A DNA stretch of 64,000 bases from Prosthecobacter vanneervenii (lineage in GTDB: Bacteria > Verrucomicrobiota > Verrucomicrobiia > Verrucomicrobiales > Verrucomicrobiaceae). Shown piece by piece: positions 1,554-58,307 of this stretch. A model generated the notes under the pieces. That model searched no databases, was not told the origin of the DNA, and worked only from the letters and a program-made list of their open reading frames with translations. Position 1 is the first letter of the stretch; each line of letters starts with the position of its first letter. The stretch is from positions 186,001 through 250,000 of the forward strand of contig NZ_JACHIG010000004.1 of assembly GCF_014203095.1 (NCBI RefSeq), written 5' to 3'. A program made the position numbers and the translations under genes.

Positions 1554-4142
1554 TTACTTGCTTTGGAACAACGTGCTCTGGACGATCTGATGTATCAGGG
1601 ATTTCACGCCATGGCCTTCGGCCTTGGTAGCGGCCAGCATCTGCTCGATGGCCGGGCGGTCGCCAAACTGGACGGGCGCGCCGGTGGCGTAGGTGACAAG
1701 CTGGCGCAGCAGATTGCGGGCGATTTGATCTTCATCGGCGAGCAGCAGCTTTTTCAATTCGCGGATGTCTTTGAAGTCGCGTCCATCCGGCAGCGTGCCG
1801 CTGGCATCCACCGGCTGTGCGGGATGGAAGGTGAAGGGCTGGCCGTTCTTGCCGTAGCCGGGCGGAGGAGTGCCGCCTTCGCCGAGGGCGCGGTAGTTAT
1901 CCCGCCAGCCGCCCATGACGTCGAAATTCTCCAGTGCAAATCCGGCGGGGTCGATCTTGGCATGGCAGGCGGCGCAGGTCTCCAGCTTGCGATGAGCGGC
2001 GAGCTGCTCGCGAATGGTGTGGGCACCGCGTGTGTCGGGCTCGATGGCAGGCACGCTCGCAGGCGGTGGAGGCGGGGGCTTGCCCAGCAGGCGCTCCATG
2101 ATCCACGCACCGCGCTGCACGGGGCTGGTGGTGGTGCCGTTGGCAGTGACCTTGAGCACGCTGGCCTGAGTCATGAGTCCGCCGCGCGGGCTGTCTTTGG
2201 GCAGCGAGACGCGCTGCAGCTTCACACCGTCCACCGCTGGCAGGCCGTAGTGCGCGGCCAGGCGCTCATTGAGCATGGCAAAGTCTGAGGCCACGAGATG
2301 GCGTGCAGGCAGATTGTTTTTTAGCAGCTCGGCAAAGAAGAGCTGCGTCTCCTGGGTGGCGGATTCCACCAGCAGATCGTCCAGGTAGTAGTCGGGGTAC
2401 AGCGTGGCGTCGGGGGAGGTGGCGTTGGCTTTGCGCAGGTCCAGCCAGTAGTCGAGAAAGGCATCTACAAAGCGGCGCGCACGTGCATCGGCCAGCAGAC
2501 GCTCTGTCTGCGCGCGCAGCACCTCGGGCTTGCTCAGGTCAGCGGCGCGCAGCTCGTCATCCGGGCCGGAGTTCCAGAGGAAGCAGGAGAGGCGGGTGGC
2601 CACGGCGGCATTGTCCAGACGGCCGGGTTTTTCTTCGAGGCAGACAAACTTGGGCGAGCACAGCACGGCAGTGTAGCCGGCGATCATGGAGTCGGCAAAA
2701 TCGCTGCCTGCTTTGCGTGCGGCTTCGATGACGTGGAGGAAGCGCTGCACATCCTCGTCGGCGAAGGGCTCGCGATAGGCGCGCTGCATGAAGCGGCGCA
2801 GCAGGCGCTCGGCATCGGCGGGATTTTTGGAGATGACCTCGACCTTGGCGTTTTTGTCTTTGCGGAAGACGGGCAGGTCATCAAACAGCACGCGATGGCC
2901 GGGCAATGGCCAGCTTTCGAGGATGGGGCCCTGGACTTCCATCCACTGCATGGCCAGACCAGGCTGGCCCTCGTGAGTGGCGAGGGGATTGTGAAACGCA
3001 GGCGGGCGCGAGCGGAAAAGACGCACCGCGTCGTAGCGGATCAGCTCGCCTTTGAGCAGGTAGGTGTCGATCTCCTGCACGGTGGGCTCCACCCCCACAT
3101 CAAAGCTGCCCAGCAAGCGAAGCTGACGCGGTGGCAGCTCGGAGTAGATCGTTACGGGCTCCGGACGGCGGCCTTTGGAGACCATGTCCAGATTGGGCCG
3201 CCACCAGCTTTTGGCCGGGCCTGGCCCCACCCACAGGGAGTAGCCGCTGAAGCGCAGCTTGTAGTGCCCGGACATGGGGGCTTTGAAAACGGTGAACTTC
3301 AGCTCGATGGGTTCGTAGCTGCTGGCCACGGTGCCGATGGCCTCCTGCTCGCGTGCTTTGGGGTCCTTGGCTCCGACCGTGGGCGGCGCGGTGCCTGCGC
3401 GGACGTCTGGCTGCGCCTGGGTGCCCAGTACAGGAAAGGTGGCGCGCTCGGGGCTGCGGTTGAACTCGCTGAACTTCATCTTGCGTACCAGCGAGGAGTC
3501 GGAGCGTGTGTAGTAGCGTTTGGTCTTCGACTCCGGGCGCGAGAGCTGCGAGGCCATGACCTCGCGCAGCGCGTAATCCGCCGCGCCGAGATAGCGCGCC
3601 ATCTGCACGTGGGAGACATCCAGCGCATCGCCGATCTTGTTGAAGCGGCTGGCCTCGCCGTCCTCAGGCAGCTTGTCCTTGATCTGCAGCCACGGAGCGG
3701 AGAGGAGATCGCGCAGCGTGTTTTCATACTCCAGGCGGTTCATGCGCCGCCAGGTGGTGCGGCCTTCCTTGGCGGTGCGCTCCTGATCTGCCGCGATCAT
3801 CGGCTGCTCGAGGTCTTTGAGAAACGCCGTCACCTCTGACGGTGCAGGCTGCGTTTTCTTTTTTTTCGGCGGCATCTCGCCATCGCGCACGCGATCATGC
3901 ACCTTGACCCATTCCGCGAAGGCCTTGGGATTCTTGAGGTCAAACTTCAGCGCCGTGAGGTCGAGGTTTCCTTTCTTGGTGTCTGCGTCGTGGCATTCGA
4001 TGCAGTACTGGTCCAGAAAGGACTGACGGCCTTTGTCAGCCGCCGAGGCGGGTGGTGCAGAGACAAGCGCCAGGCACAGGCCAGCGGCCTGTGGCAGCAG
4101 CGGAGAATGGCGACACAAAAACAGACGAGAGACAAAAGGCAT
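1554..4142 (-). CDS. DUF1592/DUF1588/DUF1585 c-type cytochrome-like protein
   Basis: Large exported protein of the planctomycetal DUF1587-DUF1592-DUF1588-DUF1585 architecture. A signal peptide ends near residue 35 (the PASAA region). A first haem-binding motif CIECH lies at residues 47-51 (PSCyt-like N-terminus) and a second CAACH at 723-727, in the DUF1588 region that precedes the C-terminal DUF1585. The substrate is unknown; family context suggests periplasmic oxidation or breakdown of carbon compounds with electrons passed through covalently bound haem. The downstream DUF1552 gene is 5 bp away, and the upstream SMP-30-like gene ends 82 bp before this start, which suggests a three-gene transcript. 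At 862 residues it is of usual length. Confidence 0.92.
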
Positions 4143-4224
4143 TGGGGGGATGTAGGAAACGTCCTGGATCGGCCAAAGTACCGCAAATTTGATGCGGGAT
4201 CATCTGGTTCCTGCCCCCTCGGCC

Positions 4225-5352
4225 TCAGCGCAGCGGTACGCTCCAGAGATGGCTGCCGGAGGTGATGAAGAGGGTCTTGCCGTCCTTGCCACCAAAGGCG
4301 CAGTTGCAGCATTCGTCCGGAGCCACGGGGATGAAGTCGAGCAGGTGGCCGGAGGGAGAGAGAATGTAACAGCCTGCCTTGAAGCTGGTGTTTTCGAACT
4401 CGGTGGCTTTGTTGGTGCCAGCAGCCACATAGATGCGGCCTGCGCTGTCCATCTTCATGCCATCGGGGCCACGGCCGTCTTTCCAATCGAAGAGGACTTT
4501 TTGTGTGCCGGGTTTCAAATCGCCGTTTTTATCCAGGGTATAGCGCAGGAGTTTGCGCGAGCCGCCGTGGGTGCTGTTGTTGTTGTCGGCGATGTAGAGG
4601 TAGTGGTTGTCTGGGGAGATGAGGATGCCGTTGGGGCGTTCCGCTCCGTCGCAATAGATGCGGGTGACGTTCGGGACATCGTAGACTAATCCACAAACGC
4701 CATGTGGAAATTTGGCTGGCCGATTGATCCGATACACACCTTCGACAAAGGGAACAAATGACTTCAAAGAATCTCCAATGTCTAAAAGGGCATCCAGTGT
4801 TTTGCTCTTCGATTTCTTTTCACTGCAGTGATGATAAAAATCGGCTGTATCTTGTGGGTTGGAGAATCCGCCAGGTAGACTAAAAATACCTAAACCCAGA
4901 CGACTCTGGATCTCCATCCCCGCCCGCGACCCATACCTCGGGTCCGTGAAATAAATCCGGCCCTTCGAGTCCGTGCACAGATCGTTCGGCGAGTTGAAGC
5001 GTTTCCCTTCAAACCGATCCGCCAGCACGGTGATGCTTCCATCCTTCTCCGTCCGTGTGACGCGGCGCATCTTCGTCTCGCAGGCCACCAGTCGACCCTC
5101 TTTGTCAAACAGCAGCCCGTTCGACGAATTATGGCGAAACACCGTCGTCTTCCCATCCGGTCCCATGCGGTTGATGTGCTGGCCGTCGGTAAAGTAGAGG
5201 GAGCCGTCTTTCCATGCGGGGCCTTCCGTCGCGCCGATGGCACCGTGGTCCTTGGGCTTGGCCCCAGGAACGATGGGCGAGCGCATGGAGGTGCAGGAGG
5301 CCAGGGCAAGGCCGAGGGCGAGGGCGAGGAAGGGAAGGGCAGTAGTGTGCAT
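4225..5352 (-). CDS. SMP-30/gluconolactonase-like lipoprotein
   Basis: Six-bladed beta-propeller of the SMP-30/gluconolactonase/LRE type, likely a periplasmic lactonase-like hydrolase; the substrate cannot be read from sequence. I choose the ATG at 5352 rather than an in-frame ATG at 5412 because it gives a clean lipoprotein signal with lipobox LASC (Cys 20). Family landmarks are ATEGPAW near the N-terminus, NSPNDLC and FTDPRYG in the middle, ERPNGI later and the RGPDGMK blade near the end. About residues 140-220 (4690-4935) are unusual: the family normally goes quickly from the DPRYG blade to EGVYRI, whereas here there is an extra Lys/Ser-rich stretch. Bases 4741-4860 are only about 39 % GC by hand count. 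First gene of the operon with the DUF1592 and DUF1552 genes. Confidence 0.85.
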   Translation of the reverse strand: MHTTALPFLALALGLALASCTSMRSPIVPGAKPKDHGAIGATEGPAWKDGSLYFTDGQHINRMGPDGKTTVFRHNSSNGLLFDKEGRLVACETKMRRVTRTEKDGSITVLADRFEGKRFNSPNDLCTDSKGRIYFTDPRYGSRAGMEIQSRLGLGIFSLPGGFSNPQDTADFYHHCSEKKSKSKTLDALLDIGDSLKSFVPFVEGVYRINRPAKFPHGVCGLVYDVPNVTRIYCDGAERPNGILISPDNHYLYIADNNNSTHGGSRKLLRYTLDKNGDLKPGTQKVLFDWKDGRGPDGMKMDSAGRIYVAAGTNKATEFENTSFKAGCYILSPSGHLLDFIPVAPDECCNCAFGGKDGKTLFITSGSHLWSVPLR

Positions 5353-5441
5353 GCGCGGTAGGCGGAATGATGACGCAGGAATACGGCGGGGGGCGGAAAA
5401 TTTCAGCGACACATCGCCGTAGCAGCGTTTTCTAACAGCAC

Positions 5442-6917
5442 ATGCGTTTGACCCTTCTGCTGCCCTTTCTCCTGCTCTCCGCCGCCATGCTGCACGCCCA
5501 GACCGGTGTGAGTGTGCCGCCGCCTGCGCGTGAACTGCGGGGTTCGTGGATCGCGACGGTGCGGAATATCAACTGGCCCTCCGAGCCGGGCCTGCCGGTG
5601 GCGAAGCAGAAGGCACAGCTGCTGGCATTGATCGACTCCGCAGCCAAGATCGGGCTGAATGCACTCATCTTCCAGGTGCGGCCCGCCGGAGACGCCATGT
5701 ATGAGTCAAAGCTGGAGCCGTGGTCGCCGTTTCTCACCGGAGAGATGGGCAAATCCCCCGGCTGGGATCCGCTGGAGTTTGCGGTGACGGAGGCGCACAA
5801 GCGCGGCATGGAACTGCATGCGTGGTTCAACCCCTTCCGTGCGCTGGCGGGGGAGAAGCATGCGCCGAGCGCTGATCATATCCGACGCGAGAATCCGCAG
5901 TGGACGATGAAGTACAACATCGACTGGTGGATGGACCCGGGCGTGCCCGAAGTGCGGAAGCAGGCGGTGGACGTGATGCTGGATGTGACTCGCCGCTACG
6001 ATGTGGATGGCATCCACATCGATGATTACTTCTACCCCTATCCCATCATGGACGCGGCAAAGAAGAAGATCCCGTTTCCTGATGAGGCCCGGTATGCGCT
6101 CTACCGCGCCAATGGCGGCACGCTGGAGCTCACCGCATGGCGGCGGCAGAATGTGGACGAGGTGGTGCGCACCACATACGAGGGCATCAAGGGGATCAAG
6201 CGGCACGTGAAGTTTGGAATCAGCCCCTTCGGCCTGTGGCGGCCCAACTACCCCGAAGGCACCGGTGGCGGGCTGGACCCGTATGAGGATCTGGCGGCAG
6301 ACTCGCTCAAGTGGCTGCAGCAGGGCTGGGTGGACTACTTCACGCCGCAGCTGTACTGGACGATCGACCGGCCCAAGCTGGGCTTCATCACCTACTACGA
6401 CTGGTGGCTGCAGCAGAACACGCAGGGCCGCCACATCTGGCCTGGGATGAACACCTCAAAAATTGGCGATGACCGCAACGCGGGCGAGATCCTGCACGAG
6501 ATGAGCGTGCTGCGGGAGCGCGGCCTGAAGATGACGCCCGGCCACTTTCACTGGAATTTTGGCGCGCTGCACAAGGACATCGGCAAGATTGGCACGTATT
6601 TGAAGCAGCGCGCCTACACGCCGCACGCACTGCCGCCCGCCAGCCCCTGGCTGAGCAATACGCCGCTGCCCGCCCCGCTGGTGGGCAAGACGATGCCCGG
6701 CGGCCGCAAGACGGTGGCGTGGCGTTTTGACGATCCGCGCTGGATGGCCTCCACCCGCTGGTGGGTGATGCAGGCGCAGATCGGCGGCAAGTGGCAGACG
6801 TGGAAGGCTTTTTACAAGGACCAGCAGAGCGCCGAGTGGCCCGAAGGCGCCACCGCCGTGGCCATCCGCGCCGGAGGTCTGGGCTGGGAAGTGGGCGAGG
6901 CAGGAGTGGCCAACTGA
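5442..6917 (+). CDS. GHL10 (DUF187) family glycoside hydrolase-like protein
   Basis: Secreted TIM-barrel protein of the GHL10/DUF187 family (YngK-like), related to glycoside hydrolases and thought to act on cell-wall or other polysaccharides. The N-terminal signal peptide ends near residue 20. The family opening ELRGSWIATVRNINWPS follows directly. The barrel motif DVDGIHIDDYFYPYP lies at residues 187-201 and holds the acidic residues usual for catalysis (D194, D195). A C-terminal segment of about 90 residues (from about 400) looks like a small beta domain. It is divergent from the SMP-30 operon, with 89 bp between the two starts, so the promoters must share that short region. 491 residues is normal. 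Confidence 0.88.
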   Translation: MRLTLLLPFLLLSAAMLHAQTGVSVPPPARELRGSWIATVRNINWPSEPGLPVAKQKAQLLALIDSAAKIGLNALIFQVRPAGDAMYESKLEPWSPFLTGEMGKSPGWDPLEFAVTEAHKRGMELHAWFNPFRALAGEKHAPSADHIRRENPQWTMKYNIDWWMDPGVPEVRKQAVDVMLDVTRRYDVDGIHIDDYFYPYPIMDAAKKKIPFPDEARYALYRANGGTLELTAWRRQNVDEVVRTTYEGIKGIKRHVKFGISPFGLWRPNYPEGTGGGLDPYEDLAADSLKWLQQGWVDYFTPQLYWTIDRPKLGFITYYDWWLQQNTQGRHIWPGMNTSKIGDDRNAGEILHEMSVLRERGLKMTPGHFHWNFGALHKDIGKIGTYLKQRAYTPHALPPASPWLSNTPLPAPLVGKTMPGGRKTVAWRFDDPRWMASTRWWVMQAQIGGKWQTWKAFYKDQQSAEWPEGATAVAIRAGGLGWEVGEAGVAN

Positions 6918-53396: not shown

Positions 53397-56300
53397 ATGA
53401 AACGTCTGCTCTTCCTCCTCCTCGCCGCCCAGCTCCATGCGGAGACCCAGATCACCTGGAAGCGCCAGCAATTGCATGGCGACTTTTATTCCGAGGGCGC
53501 GGCGATCGGTGACATCAATGGCGATGGCAAGGCGGACGTGGTGGCCGGGCCGTTTTGGTGGGAGGGGCCGGCGTTTGAGAAAAAGCACGCCTACTACGAG
53601 CCGAAGATTTTCAGCATCAATGGCTACTCGGACAACTTCTTTGCCTACGTGCATGATTTCAATGCGGACCAGAAGAATGACATCCTCATCCTCGGCTTTC
53701 CCGGCAAAGAGGCGCGGCTGTACCTGAACCCCGGCACGCACGATGACAAGCCCTGGCCCATGCACATCGTGGCGGATGTGGTGGACAATGAATCGCCGGT
53801 TTTCACCGACATCACGGGCGATGGCAAACCGGAGATCGTGTGCAGCACGGGCGGCAAATTCGGCTGGTTCGCGTCAAACTGGGAAAAGCCGACGGAGAAG
53901 TGGCCCTTTGTGGCGGTGACAGAGGATGTGAAGGTGGCCAAGTTTACCCATGGGCTCGGAGTGGGTGATGTGAATGGCGATGGCAAGATGGACCTGCTGG
54001 AGGCGCGGCGGTGGTGGGAGAACAAACCCGGCAGTGCGACTTGGGAGCAGCACAACTTCGCCGCCGGCGTGGGCGGCGGGGCGCAGATGTTTGCATATGA
54101 CTTTGATGGCAACGGCACCAGCGACGTCTTCACCAGCCTGTCGGCGCATCGCTATGGGGTGGCGGTGTTCTTGCAGAACAAGCCCGCTCCGAACCAGCCC
54201 AACTGGCAGCGCATCATGCTGGCCAGCGAGCAGCCGCAGGACAACGACTACGGCATCGTCTTCTCCCAGCCGCATGCGGCGTATCTGGCGGATATGGATG
54301 GCGATGGGATCAAGGACATCGTCACTGGCAAGCGCTACTGGGCGCACAATGGGCACGACCCCGATGAAAGCGGGCATCGTGTCATTTACTGGTATCAAAC
54401 GAAGCGCGATGGGAAGGGCGGCGTGGATTTTGTGCCACACCTTGTGGATGCCGAGAGTGGCGTGGGTGTGGATGTTCAGGTGGGCGATGTGAATGGCGAC
54501 AAGCTGCCAGACATCGTGGTGGCCAATAAAGCGGGCGTTTTCATCCTCATGCAGGAGCGCAAAGAGACGACGGCGGACGTTACGCCGAAGAAGATGTACG
54601 GGGCGGGGCTGATGGCGCAGAAGGATTATGCGCATGGCACACGCGTCAGCGGGGAGCGCCTGCGTCCCGCAGGCAGTCTTTCGCGTCCCGCGGAAGACCG
54701 TCCCAAGGCGGACGCAAACACACCAGTAGGCGCAGGGGATAGAACGGCATCCGGCGGGACGCCAGATGCAGCACGCGAGACGCGTGCGCTCCCTCACGCG
54801 CTTGATCTCATGCAGCTTCCTGGCGGGTTTAAGGCGGAGCTGATTGCCGCAGAGCCGGATCTTGTGCAGCCCATCGCCTTCACGTTTGATGAGCGCGGCC
54901 GCATTTGGGTGGTGGAGGGAAACAGCTATCCGAAACCACGTGAAGTGGGTGCAGGGCAGGACCGCATCAAGATTCTTGAAGACAAAGATGGAGACGGTGT
55001 CTTTGAGACGAAGAAGATTTTCTGCGAAGGGCTGAATCTTGTGAGCGGGATCGAGCTGGGCTTTGGCGGGGTGTGGGTGGGGGCTGCCCCGTATTTCATA
55101 TTCATCCCGCGCGATGGCGACAAGCCGCTACCGCTGGGTAGTAACCGGGCTATTCCTGGCGCGCCAGATGGGGGCAAGAATGCCCCCGCTACGCAGGTCC
55201 CAGGCCTTAACTTCACCGCCTACGCCCTGCTGGATGGCTGGGGCAGCCAGGATACGCACGAGACGCTTAACAGTTTCATCTGGGGCCCCGACGGCTGGCT
55301 TTACGGCTGCCATGGTGTCTTCACCCACAGCAAGGTCGGCAAGCCAGGCGCGCCCGATGCTGAGCGCAAGCCCATCAACGCCGGTATCTGGCGTTACCAC
55401 CCGACGCGGCACGCGTTTGAAATCTTTGCCGAAGGCACAAGCAATCCGTGGGGGCTGGACTACGACCAGTACGGCGAGTTCTTCGTGACCGCCTGCGTCA
55501 TCCCGCATCTCTACCACATCGTGCCAGGCGGGCGCTACCAGCGCCAGGCGGGTCAGCACTTCAATCCCTACACGTATGAAGACATCAAGACCATCGCCGA
55601 CCATGCGCACTACGCGGGCAGTGCGCGCCCTGATGTGACCTTCGACAAAAACACCGGCGCCGGCATCATGAATGACGACACCAATGCGCTCGGTGGCGGG
55701 CATGCGCATTGCGGTCTGGCCATCTATCAGAGCAGCCTCTTCCCACCGACGTATCGCAATCAGCTCATCTTTGGCAATCTGCACGGGCATCGGCTGGTTA
55801 CCAACTACACTGACCCGCACGCGAGCAGCTATATCGGTAAGCACGGCAGCGACTTCATGCGCGCGAATGACATGCACTTCATTCCCGTGACGCAGAAGGT
55901 GGGGCCGGATGGTGCGCTGTATGTGAGCGACTGGAGCGACCAGCAGATCTGCCACCGAGGAAGCAACGCGGTGGAAAACTGGGACCGTAGCAACGGGCGT
56001 ATTTATCGCATCAGCTACGACGGCTGGAAGCCGTGGAGGGGGGATCTGGCGAAGGAGAGTGATGAAGAGCTGGCGAAGCTGGCGGTCCAGACGGAAAACG
56101 AGTGGGAGTCGCGCATGGCGAGGAGGGTGCTGATGGAGCAGCGGAAGAAGAACAATGCAATCGAGCCAGTAAGTAAACTTGCGATGGATCTACTGAAAGA
56201 TGCAAAAAAACCAGTCGCATCATTGCGGGGACTTTGGTTGTTAGCCGCAGGATACGTCCCATCTCAGACACCAATCCAGTTCCGAACCCTTGATCTCTAT

Positions 56301-58307
56301 TTCCATTCAGATGAGCGAGTCAGAATGTGGGCTTGGAGGCTGCTGTCCAACGAGGAGTGGATGTTTAATGAAACTCTCGGTTATCTTATTGAAAACGGTC
56401 GTAACGCACCGAAAGAGCGCAGCAAGCTTTATGGGCGGGAAAATGTCCCTTCCTTGTCAGATGCGCTAATGAAGGAGACATCAGTGCTTGTCCGACGTGG
56501 TGCCGCATCCTGTCTGCAACGGATTTCTTATTTGCCGGATCGAGCCCCCCTCGCCAGTTCTCTGCTATCCCACGGCGAAGACAAGGACGATCCCATGATC
56601 CCGCTGCTGATCTGGTATGGCATCGAGCCGATGGTTGGTGCTGATCCGAAGGTGGGGCTGGAGCTGGCGGCGGTGTCGAAGTTGCCGAAGGTGACGGAGT
56701 TTATTTATCGTCGTTTGTCGTCGGATGATGCGGGGCGGGCTTCGGTGCTCTCTGAGCTCACGAAAGAGCCGGATGCGGCGAAGCGCGAGGCGACGCTGGG
56801 AATGATCCTGAGTAGTGCGCGGGGTGCGGGCAAGCTGAGCATGCCAGCGGACTGGCCGGCGACTGCGGCGAAGCTCAAGACGGGTGCTTCCGGGGCCGTG
56901 GAAAAGATGGTCGCCGAACTGAGCGCGTTGTTTGGTGATGCGGGGGCGCTGGAAAGCTTCCGCGGACAGCTCGGGTCTGCTACGCTGGACACGCCTGCAC
57001 GTGAGAAGGCGCTGGCTGTGCTGCTGCAGTCTCAGGACACAGCGACGGCGAAGCTCCTGCAGCATATCGTTTCTGACCAAGGCACTCCCGCCTCGCTCAG
57101 GCGCAAGGGCATCCAGGCGCTGGCCTCGCTCAAAGATGCGGGCACGCCGAAGGTGCTGGGGGCGCTGCTGCCGAAGCTCTCTGCGAATGAGCTGCCGGAT
57201 GCGGTCAACACGCTGGCTTCGACGAAAGAGGGCTCCAAAGAGCTGCTCAAAGCCGTGGAGGCCAAGACAGTGCCTGCTACGGCACTTTCTCCCTTCCTTG
57301 TGCGCCAGCTCACCGCTTTTGACGACAAGGAGATCAACGGCCTCATCAAATCCGCCTGGGGCGATGTGAATGCGCCGAAGGCGAACTTGGGCGAGCGGAC
57401 GAAGAAGTACCGCGAGATGCTCACGCCTGCGGCTGTTGCGAAGGGCGATCTGGAGAAAGGCAAGATGCTCTTCACCATGACCTGCGGCCAGTGCCACAAG
57501 CTCTTTGGCCAGGGGCAGAACGTGGGCCCGGACATCACGGGCAGCAATCGCGCGGATTTGAACTACCTGCTCGAAAACGTGCTGGATCCGAATGCGGTGA
57601 TCGGCAAGGCCTACCAGCTCAACCTCTTCACCATGAAGGACGGGCGTGTGATGAGCGGTGTCATCAAGGAGGAAACGCCAGCCACCGTGCGCATCGCCAT
57701 GATGGGTGGCGTGGAATTTACGCTGCCGCAGCCGGACATCGCCAAGCGTGAGGTGTCGAAGCTGAGCACGATGCCGGAAGGATTGTTCGATGCTCTGAAG
57801 CCGGAGCAGGTGATTGATCTGGTGAAGTATCTGCAGAGCGGGGCTTCCGGACCGGCCAAAGGCGCGACGACAATCCCCGGAGCGATTGAGGGTGAGGGGC
57901 TGAAGGTACTGAACAAAACCGGCGGCAATGCGAAACCGCAGGGGATGGGCGGCTTTGGCAGCGAGTGGAGCGGGGCTTCGCAGCTCTGGTGGACCGGTGG
58001 CAAGCCGGGGCAGAAGCTGACGCTGGCGCTGCCGGTGCCGGAGAAGGGAAAATACAATCTCAAAGCGGCGCTGACGATGGCACGCGACTACGGCATCATC
58101 GATGTCTCACTTGATGACAAACCCGTGGCCAGCGCCTGGGACGGCTACAACGGCCCCAAGGTCATTCACAGTGACGAGCTCGACTGGGGCACGCATGAAC
58201 TCAGCGCGGGCGAGCATCAGCTTTCCATCACGATCACCGGCAAGCACGCCGATGCGGTGCCGGGCTACATGGTGGGGCTGGATTATGTGAGGCTGGAGAA
58301 GAAGTGA
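53397..58307 (+). CDS. giant PVC dehydrogenase/haem-binding protein with FG-GAP domain
   Basis: 1636-residue exported protein. Order: signal peptide (to about 16); an FG-GAP/VCBS seven-bladed propeller (20-400; DINGDGKADVVAG, DVNGDGKMDLLEA, DMDGDGIKDIVTG); a repeat-derived linker (about 418-465); a PVC-type dehydrogenase propeller (470-900; DLVQPIAFTFDERGRIWVVEG, WGPDGWLYGCHGVF, SDWSDQQICHRG); HEAT-like repeats (900-1330); haem motif CGQCH at 1363-1367 with NVGPDITGSNR; a C-terminal CBM-like domain (about 1500-1636). Likely a periplasmic carbohydrate-binding oxidoreductase. A second insertion (about residues 580-604) is absent from the paralogue at 58844-61897. Confidence 0.93.
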   Translation: MKRLLFLLLAAQLHAETQITWKRQQLHGDFYSEGAAIGDINGDGKADVVAGPFWWEGPAFEKKHAYYEPKIFSINGYSDNFFAYVHDFNADQKNDILILGFPGKEARLYLNPGTHDDKPWPMHIVADVVDNESPVFTDITGDGKPEIVCSTGGKFGWFASNWEKPTEKWPFVAVTEDVKVAKFTHGLGVGDVNGDGKMDLLEARRWWENKPGSATWEQHNFAAGVGGGAQMFAYDFDGNGTSDVFTSLSAHRYGVAVFLQNKPAPNQPNWQRIMLASEQPQDNDYGIVFSQPHAAYLADMDGDGIKDIVTGKRYWAHNGHDPDESGHRVIYWYQTKRDGKGGVDFVPHLVDAESGVGVDVQVGDVNGDKLPDIVVANKAGVFILMQERKETTADVTPKKMYGAGLMAQKDYAHGTRVSGERLRPAGSLSRPAEDRPKADANTPVGAGDRTASGGTPDAARETRALPHALDLMQLPGGFKAELIAAEPDLVQPIAFTFDERGRIWVVEGNSYPKPREVGAGQDRIKILEDKDGDGVFETKKIFCEGLNLVSGIELGFGGVWVGAAPYFIFIPRDGDKPLPLGSNRAIPGAPDGGKNAPATQVPGLNFTAYALLDGWGSQDTHETLNSFIWGPDGWLYGCHGVFTHSKVGKPGAPDAERKPINAGIWRYHPTRHAFEIFAEGTSNPWGLDYDQYGEFFVTACVIPHLYHIVPGGRYQRQAGQHFNPYTYEDIKTIADHAHYAGSARPDVTFDKNTGAGIMNDDTNALGGGHAHCGLAIYQSSLFPPTYRNQLIFGNLHGHRLVTNYTDPHASSYIGKHGSDFMRANDMHFIPVTQKVGPDGALYVSDWSDQQICHRGSNAVENWDRSNGRIYRISYDGWKPWRGDLAKESDEELAKLAVQTENEWESRMARRVLMEQRKKNNAIEPVSKLAMDLLKDAKKPVASLRGLWLLAAGYVPSQTPIQFRTLDLYFHSDERVRMWAWRLLSNEEWMFNETLGYLIENGRNAPKERSKLYGRENVPSLSDALMKETSVLVRRGAASCLQRISYLPDRAPLASSLLSHGEDKDDPMIPLLIWYGIEPMVGADPKVGLELAAVSKLPKVTEFIYRRLSSDDAGRASVLSELTKEPDAAKREATLGMILSSARGAGKLSMPADWPATAAKLKTGASGAVEKMVAELSALFGDAGALESFRGQLGSATLDTPAREKALAVLLQSQDTATAKLLQHIVSDQGTPASLRRKGIQALASLKDAGTPKVLGALLPKLSANELPDAVNTLASTKEGSKELLKAVEAKTVPATALSPFLVRQLTAFDDKEINGLIKSAWGDVNAPKANLGERTKKYREMLTPAAVAKGDLEKGKMLFTMTCGQCHKLFGQGQNVGPDITGSNRADLNYLLENVLDPNAVIGKAYQLNLFTMKDGRVMSGVIKEETPATVRIAMMGGVEFTLPQPDIAKREVSKLSTMPEGLFDALKPEQVIDLVKYLQSGASGPAKGATTIPGAIEGEGLKVLNKTGGNAKPQGMGGFGSEWSGASQLWWTGGKPGQKLTLALPVPEKGKYNLKAALTMARDYGIIDVSLDDKPVASAWDGYNGPKVIHSDELDWGTHELSAGEHQLSITITGKHADAVPGYMVGLDYVRLEKK
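54646..54793. repeat. palindromic cassette inside the haem-protein gene
   Basis: Four consecutive stem-loops in about 150 bp: GCCTGC/GCAGGC (54658-54663, 54669-54674); GTCTTTCGC/GCGGAAGAC (54676-54684, 54690-54698; 9 bp with one G-T pair); a nested GCATC.GGCG/CGCC.GATGC stem (54747-54769); and a perfect GCACGCG/CGCGTGC stem (54771-54787). Two of the loops read GTCCC. GGGAGCGC (54652-54659) and GCGCTCCC (54786-54793) bracket the whole. The frame stays open, so it encodes an unrelated linker. Confidence 0.8.
55156..55187. repeat. second palindromic insertion inside the haem-protein gene
   Basis: A perfect 12-bp palindrome CTGGCGCGCCAG (55156-55167) lies 2 bp before a GGGGGC/GCCCCC hairpin with loop AAGAAT (55170-55187). 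Translated, this region gives extra residues between the DGDKP and LLDGWGSQDTHE segments that the neighbouring paralogue lacks. Confidence 0.7.

Follow-up and report, generated by a model that had tools for sequence, protein, structure and literature searches.

An in-frame REP-like insertion in a Prosthecobacter gene, probably linked to a RAYT lineage that resides within housekeeping genes of Verrucomicrobiota

The window analysed here is a stretch of 64,000 nucleotides from Prosthecobacter vanneervenii (contig NZ_JACHIG010000004.1, positions 186,001 to 250,000). Its plus strand carries, at 53397..58307, a gene for a protein of 1636 aa with FG-GAP repeats, DUF7133 and cytochrome c, which we take to be a PVC-type haem-binding dehydrogenase. 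Within this gene, a palindromic element without strand assignment (54651..54793) leaves the frame open and encodes about 48 residues (aa 419-466) between the FG-GAP and dehydrogenase parts. The four adjacent hairpins, two with plus-strand GTCCC loops, and the 48-residue linker in an open frame that an earlier note had described are both present. The element is an inverted pair of REP-like ends around a short middle, each end with two GTCYC-loop hairpins. Read off the sequence, hairpins 1 (54658..54674) and 2 (54676..54698; one G-T pair in the stem) have GTCCC loops on the plus strand, while hairpin 3 (54747..54769; one stem mismatch) has a GTCCC loop on the minus strand (GGGAC on plus) and hairpin 4 (54771..54787) a minus-strand GTCTC loop (GAGAC on plus). 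Inverted termini enclose the hairpins (GGGGAGCGC, the foot, at 54651-54659 and GCGCTCCC at 54786-54793), and the halves of the element pair as a single imperfect inverted repeat of 50 nt that is 72% complementary.

Base composition fails to explain the lengths of these stems, since those around GTCYC loops sum to 18 bp, compared with a mean of 0.26 and a maximum of 7 in shuffled sequences (0 of 2000 shuffles reached 18). The predicted RNA fold had a z of -3.70 (0 of 200 shuffles as good) and the DNA fold a z of -2.46 (1 of 200). Two inverted REPs lie close together, as in a BIME or REPIN, and inverted pairs of these ends spanning ~130-260 bp recur elsewhere. The foot of the ends is GGAG, not GTAG, which counts against the explanation we favour. 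The foot (GGGGAGCGC) contains neither the GTAG nor the CGTC tag of the two REP superfamilies; we therefore call the element REP-like and place it in neither. A palindrome-like stretch near 55170 proved to be ordinary, being part of a linker also present in several congeners. The region after the DUF7133 match (aa ~935-1035) is hypervariable among congeners.

The element has no special openness in all frames: 34 elements had on average 3.47 of six frames open, compared with 3.20 after shuffling (4 of 6 for the window element, 2.94 in its shuffles). A conserved in-frame peptide of the RPE type was not seen either, as different sites use different frames. The window copy reads ERLRPAG../..ETRALP, those in recG and in the tRNA synthetase of locus L088 read SARV../..DACAP, and L255 uses a third frame.

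The earlier note had suggested aligning homologues to see whether the linker is missing. Homologues of the window gene were collected at 30 loci; four did not include the region and one (G014) was dropped as short, leaving 25 for comparison. The element occupies the same codon in four (G000, G012, G013 and G016), and 20 have no insert at the site (19 congeners and G040, from another genus). About five codons (for example QSPQD) replace the element in the 19 empty congeners. The remaining homologue (L030, from G028) carries a differing insert at that very codon. G031 is also filled: its DNA matches the element to 85% at the corresponding position. One of the 19 empty congeners, G026 (L032), has a different palindromic in-frame insert ~20 aa upstream of the site. 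Carriers of the window element are scattered among non-carriers in a tree of recG, which points to loss or allele exchange; judging from these sequences, one or the other has probably happened.

Further copies, for which the earlier note had proposed a search, were found. The same genome holds a longer diverged copy (234 bp, contig C9) and a single end (C10), and the element has matches in 20 of the 56 genomes searched, its own included (E <= 0.01). The end pattern, allowing up to 2 mismatches, is present in 26 of 48 genus genomes with up to 41 occurrences per genome; a reversed-pattern control gave one match over all 48. We scored 53 repeat loci, some overlapping and recG cases excluded, for spanning open frames, using frames only and no gene calls. 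Since the spanning frames are mostly short, the majority of copies appear to be intergenic. At least three further copies are in frame (chosen by eye from those whose open frame extends at least 90 aa to either side, then scanned): in a class I tRNA synthetase of G018 that reads as valS and in a DUF7133/HEAT protein of G016, both with domains on either side, and in an MmeI-type methylase of G012, with a domain on the upstream side only. The recG of G004 (L096, G004:C41) was rejected as an in-frame case because its element sits outside the open frame, just upstream. REP-like ends occur near the 5' end of recG at G004:C41, G017:C395 and G031:C71, and L084 (G033:C6:364500-366800) consists of three tandem units of ~253 bp with one REP doublet each. 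These copies and the mostly empty homologues confirm an insertion: the stretch in the window is an in-frame REP-like palindromic element that entered the gene and added a linker to its product, as the earlier note had proposed. That part of its interpretation stood; it stopped short of the transposase with the same ends that is embedded in housekeeping genes.

Elsewhere in the genus, ends ~550 bp apart flank a gene for a RAYT (an HUH/Y1 transposase) inside recG, in frame with recG on both sides (total frames of 796-956 aa). A search with the RAYT alone in 48 genus genomes gave nine copies of this subfamily (61-100% identity), all in recG-length frames; seven were aligned as recG, and those of G056 and G057 read through as recG. 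The next RAYTs among the matches listed had at most 47% identity to the recG-RAYT. The 30 aligned recG loci comprised seven filled, one with a REP remnant (G034), 21 empty and one partial. Outside this alignment, G004, G011, G014 and G028 look empty, as judged by a break in the match, and no close recG was seen for G009 in the search of genus genomes. Other genus sequences listed as matching the recG part had 38-40% identity and are probably Mfd; L299 also matches the mfd model. In G018, whose recG is empty, TGGAGCA stands about where the insert starts with TGGAGCG in G033 and G034, a likeness that is the single clue to targeting and can be taken as a hint. Searches with both the RAYT and recG found no recG-RAYT in the genome of the window, so the mover of the window copy was not seen there.

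Element ends are more numerous in genomes with the recG-RAYT (mean 15.7 versus 2.1; p = 0.0004 after subtracting two flanking ends each, phylogeny ignored). Ends also occur in genomes that do not have it, such as G018 (19) and G034 (11), which counts against our preferred explanation. The recG-RAYT is under purifying selection, with dN/dS values in close pairs of 0.019 (G033/G019), 0.058 (G033/G056) and 0.072 (G012/G013). The RAYT and recG trees agree at the deep split. Synonymous divergence is higher for the RAYT than for recG in several pairs; this also counts against our explanation, and the insert may have a history partly separate from that of recG.

Other RAYTs were found in frame within further genes of the genus: in clpB (L207, G019:C6; a RAYT of another subfamily), with the first AAA part before it and the second AAA domain after it; in a GT4 glycosyltransferase of three genomes (L208, L210 and L211); and in an ADH/GFO-IDH-MocA protein of two (L165 and L166). 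Host domains flank Y1_Tnp on both sides in each of these cases, which were selected for their long frames. In 11 genus genomes, four of 128 Y1_Tnp matches lay in frames of at least 600 aa, the recG copies falling outside that listing. We conclude that RAYTs in general are not embedded as a rule, and that embedding is a property of certain RAYT lineages.

To cover the phylum and beyond, one genome per species (84,980 species) was scanned with two exact peptide patterns from the recG-RAYT alignment. It yielded 107 relatives, and the best 80 were retained (78 labelled Verrucomicrobiota and one Kiritimatiellaeota). Most of the data come from MAGs; apart from one bin-named record, Ereboglobus sp. 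PH5-10, with an alaS-RAYT, is the single entry among the 80 whose title does not call it a MAG. Host frames contained 76 of these 80 (alaS 35, recG 25, metH 10, thrS 4, carB 1 and priA 1), and four were free-standing. The proportion holds for the embedded lineage and its nearest kin, as the query was taken from the embedded lineage. Hosts were named with Pfam and NCBIfam models on one or two members per group, the rest through BLAST grouping of flanks. Contig ends cut six of the 76 embedded loci, the priA locus and five in alaS, recG, metH or thrS; for these four genes, 69 of 74 loci matched their group with both host flanks, and the other five are those cut. At L273, carB matches on both sides of the RAYT. 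Both alaS and metH have at least two RAYT insertion sites. Mapped on the RAYT tree, the host label changes 13 times (minimum possible 6; shuffled mean 38.5), and well-supported branches force at least four changes for alaS, five for recG and four for metH, losses counting as changes. These forced changes indicate that the hosts were entered or left repeatedly.

Each of 12 genomes checked among the 35 with an alaS-RAYT has a single alaS, so the enzyme must work with the RAYT inside unless the assemblies have missed a second copy. The alaS gene of one such genome (G258) is spread over two contigs. In another (G257), a TAA lies within the matched alaS stretch, yet the frame is open for 442 and 510 aa around the RAYT. 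The arrangement is rare: of 135 phylum genomes, G127 and G142 (the latter split between contigs) were the only two with it among the matches listed. In the alaS of five genomes (G079, G095, G128, G149 and G150) the match breaks at the RAYT site, with 183-345 bp unmatched in between; these are possibly repeat remnants.

A wider look at 194 phylum genomes found that at least eight of the ~150 best NF047646 matches listed have frames of at least 600 aa, a lower bound because only best matches were covered and embedded copies tend to score low; four of these eight long frames proved to have a named host part. Of 20 further long-frame stretches, three repeated earlier loci and one was a duplicate, and 16 frames were scanned. 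Host models matched in two or more stretches in nine of them: carB, metH (two frames), a DUF1156 anti-phage protein, ispG, hsdR, leuS (two) and isochorismate synthase. A further three have a host match on a single side (ispG, at the end of a contig, a creatininase-like protein and a glycosyltransferase). L417 and L421 were not counted as hosts, because their long frames match the RAYT model only, nor was L420 (menE), where the RAYT follows the enzyme; L425 (arsC), also with a long frame, was left out of the host count. At L408 (G261:C107, frame 2215-6570, minus strand), a single metH frame of 1452 aa holds two RAYT copies.

The embedded domains look like transposases of the TnpAREP type. By pattern, 75 of the 80 retain the HUH motif and YxxNP with its one catalytic Tyr; the catalytic motifs look altered in the other five, which counts against our explanation. 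Inverted repeats flank the RAYT at 74 of 78 loci tested, the remaining two of the 80 having too little flank. In one set of fusions, all eight match the NF047646 model at 70.6-82.2 bits, one of them above its cut-off of 80 bits. A profile of the RAYT compared with PDB sequences gave a sole match, 4er8 (TnpArep, E 0.0033). Among the matches listed for the fusions scanned, there was no Hint splicing domain or intein family. An in-frame ATG lies within 40 codons upstream of the RAYT in 16 of the 76 embedded copies, and an ATG, GTG or TTG in 55, so that the embedded RAYT may also be initiated internally.

AlphaFold2 modelled a RecG fusion (895 aa, 22 sequences; mean pLDDT 73.0, pTM 0.56) with a folded RAYT at ~410-551 and low confidence at 363-408 and 554-572, the predicted repeat-encoded linkers. 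The model of an AlaRS fusion (1127 aa, 21 sequences; mean pLDDT 71.4, pTM 0.45) likewise has a folded RAYT between low-confidence linkers at 453-483 and 629-645, and part of the AlaRS core (52-138) was also poorly predicted. A Foldseek search with the whole RecG fusion was uninformative about the RAYT domain, the best 50 matches listed being RecG, Mfd and other helicase folds.

Earlier literature already describes both REPs in frame and RPEs (PMC3733652, PMC10969869). GTAG/CGTC REPs, likewise palindromic repeats read in frame, were described in 2013 inside ORFs, many of them replication or repair genes, and also in the verrucomicrobium Opitutus terrae (PMC3733652); the earlier note had been aware of no equivalent described in Verrucomicrobia. 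The present ends differ in their GGAG foot, and the available text of that study describes no transposase gene within a gene. RPEs are also palindromes of ~150 bp that add in-frame peptides, (PMC10969869), but the present element differs in that its ends also flank a RAYT, its frames differ between sites and most of its copies look intergenic. With REPtrons (PMC8266576, PMC6006769, PMC3733652), the embedded RAYTs have in common the HUH/Y1 core and inverted flanking palindromes with a 5' foot, and differ from them in that the gene sits in frame inside host genes and has no stop of its own. A few unexpectedly long TnpA-Y1 proteins were discarded as gene fusions or annotation errors in one survey (PMC6006769). 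Literature searches, in which subscription journals and preprints were thinly covered, turned up nothing on entire RAYTs situated within housekeeping genes. The embedded RAYTs can also be compared with inteins, which are in-frame mobile insertions in housekeeping genes. They share this feature, whereas the fusions scanned have no listed intein or Hint family and the RAYT sites are linkers and loops.

We consider it likely that the window element is a REP doublet moved by a RAYT, whose lineage lives in frame inside housekeeping genes. What the sequences show directly is the insertion, the shared ends and the open frames, a single alaS in each genome examined for it, conservation of the HUH and Tyr motifs, and purifying selection. 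The element would be a non-autonomous, BIME/REPIN-like doublet with foot GGGGAGCGC and two hairpins per end, which a RAYT (HUH/Y1) presumably moved into the interdomain linker of the host gene, the HUH enzyme carrying out a single-strand transfer. We propose that it was retained because it happened to keep the frame open at a place where additional residues are tolerated. The RAYT gene itself sits stop-less, in frame and flanked by its two REPs in linkers or loops of recG, alaS, metH, thrS, carB and other genes. It would then be translated as a domain within the host enzyme, between two disordered REP-encoded linkers, and the fused polypeptide may be the active form of both enzymes. Embedding would persist since removing the RAYT would in most cases disrupt a gene that the host needs, a hold like that of an intein but with no splicing. 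In its full form, this picture is of a REP-transposase lineage with an intein-like life minus the splicing, in frame in linkers of essential enzymes across the phylum, hard for the host to delete, co-expressed with it and spreading REPs, some of which become linkers; we advance it tentatively, as a possibility that falls a little short of even odds.

Under a somewhat unlikely alternative, chance would suffice: RAYTs and REPs insert everywhere, and the in-frame survivors are seen in tolerant linkers without any advantage. This accords with the mostly intergenic appearance of the REPs, with frames no more open than in shuffles, with insertion sites that are linkers or loops, and with the mostly short frames of RAYTs from other subfamilies, but fits less well with the mere four free-standing members among 80 of this subfamily (the query coming from the embedded lineage) and with the recurrence of recG, alaS and metH as hosts on separate branches of the RAYT tree. 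Domestication, in which the RAYT has become a working domain of its host enzyme, is unlikely. Fork DNA is a substrate of RecG as well as of TnpA-type enzymes, and RecG could, for instance, deliver a single-strand endonuclease there; the purifying selection and the retained catalytic motifs would also fit. The same subfamily, however, also occurs in unrelated metabolic and translation enzymes, and its presence is patchy, with many close relatives that have no RAYT. An assembly or annotation artefact is very improbable: despite the preponderance of MAGs and the alaS split at contig ends at the RAYT in Ereboglobus sp. PH5-10 (L315), the fusions come from many separate assemblies, one on a contig of 2.7 Mb (G016), and they lie at recurring sites, share divergence and have low dN/dS. 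An ordinary GC-rich linker, as the composition rich in Arg, Pro, Gly and Ala might suggest, is refuted by its absence from 20 of 25 homologues at the site, the different insert in another and the homologous DNA elsewhere.

Housekeeping proteins have repeatedly taken up transposase domains and REP peptides, and embedded RAYTs of this kind can be concealed by filters on protein length. RAYTs are usually regarded as domesticated transposases that persist, mostly in single copy, and whose benefit is unknown. A RAYT lineage locked in frame in alaS, recG, metH and other genes suggests a testable means by which they may persist.
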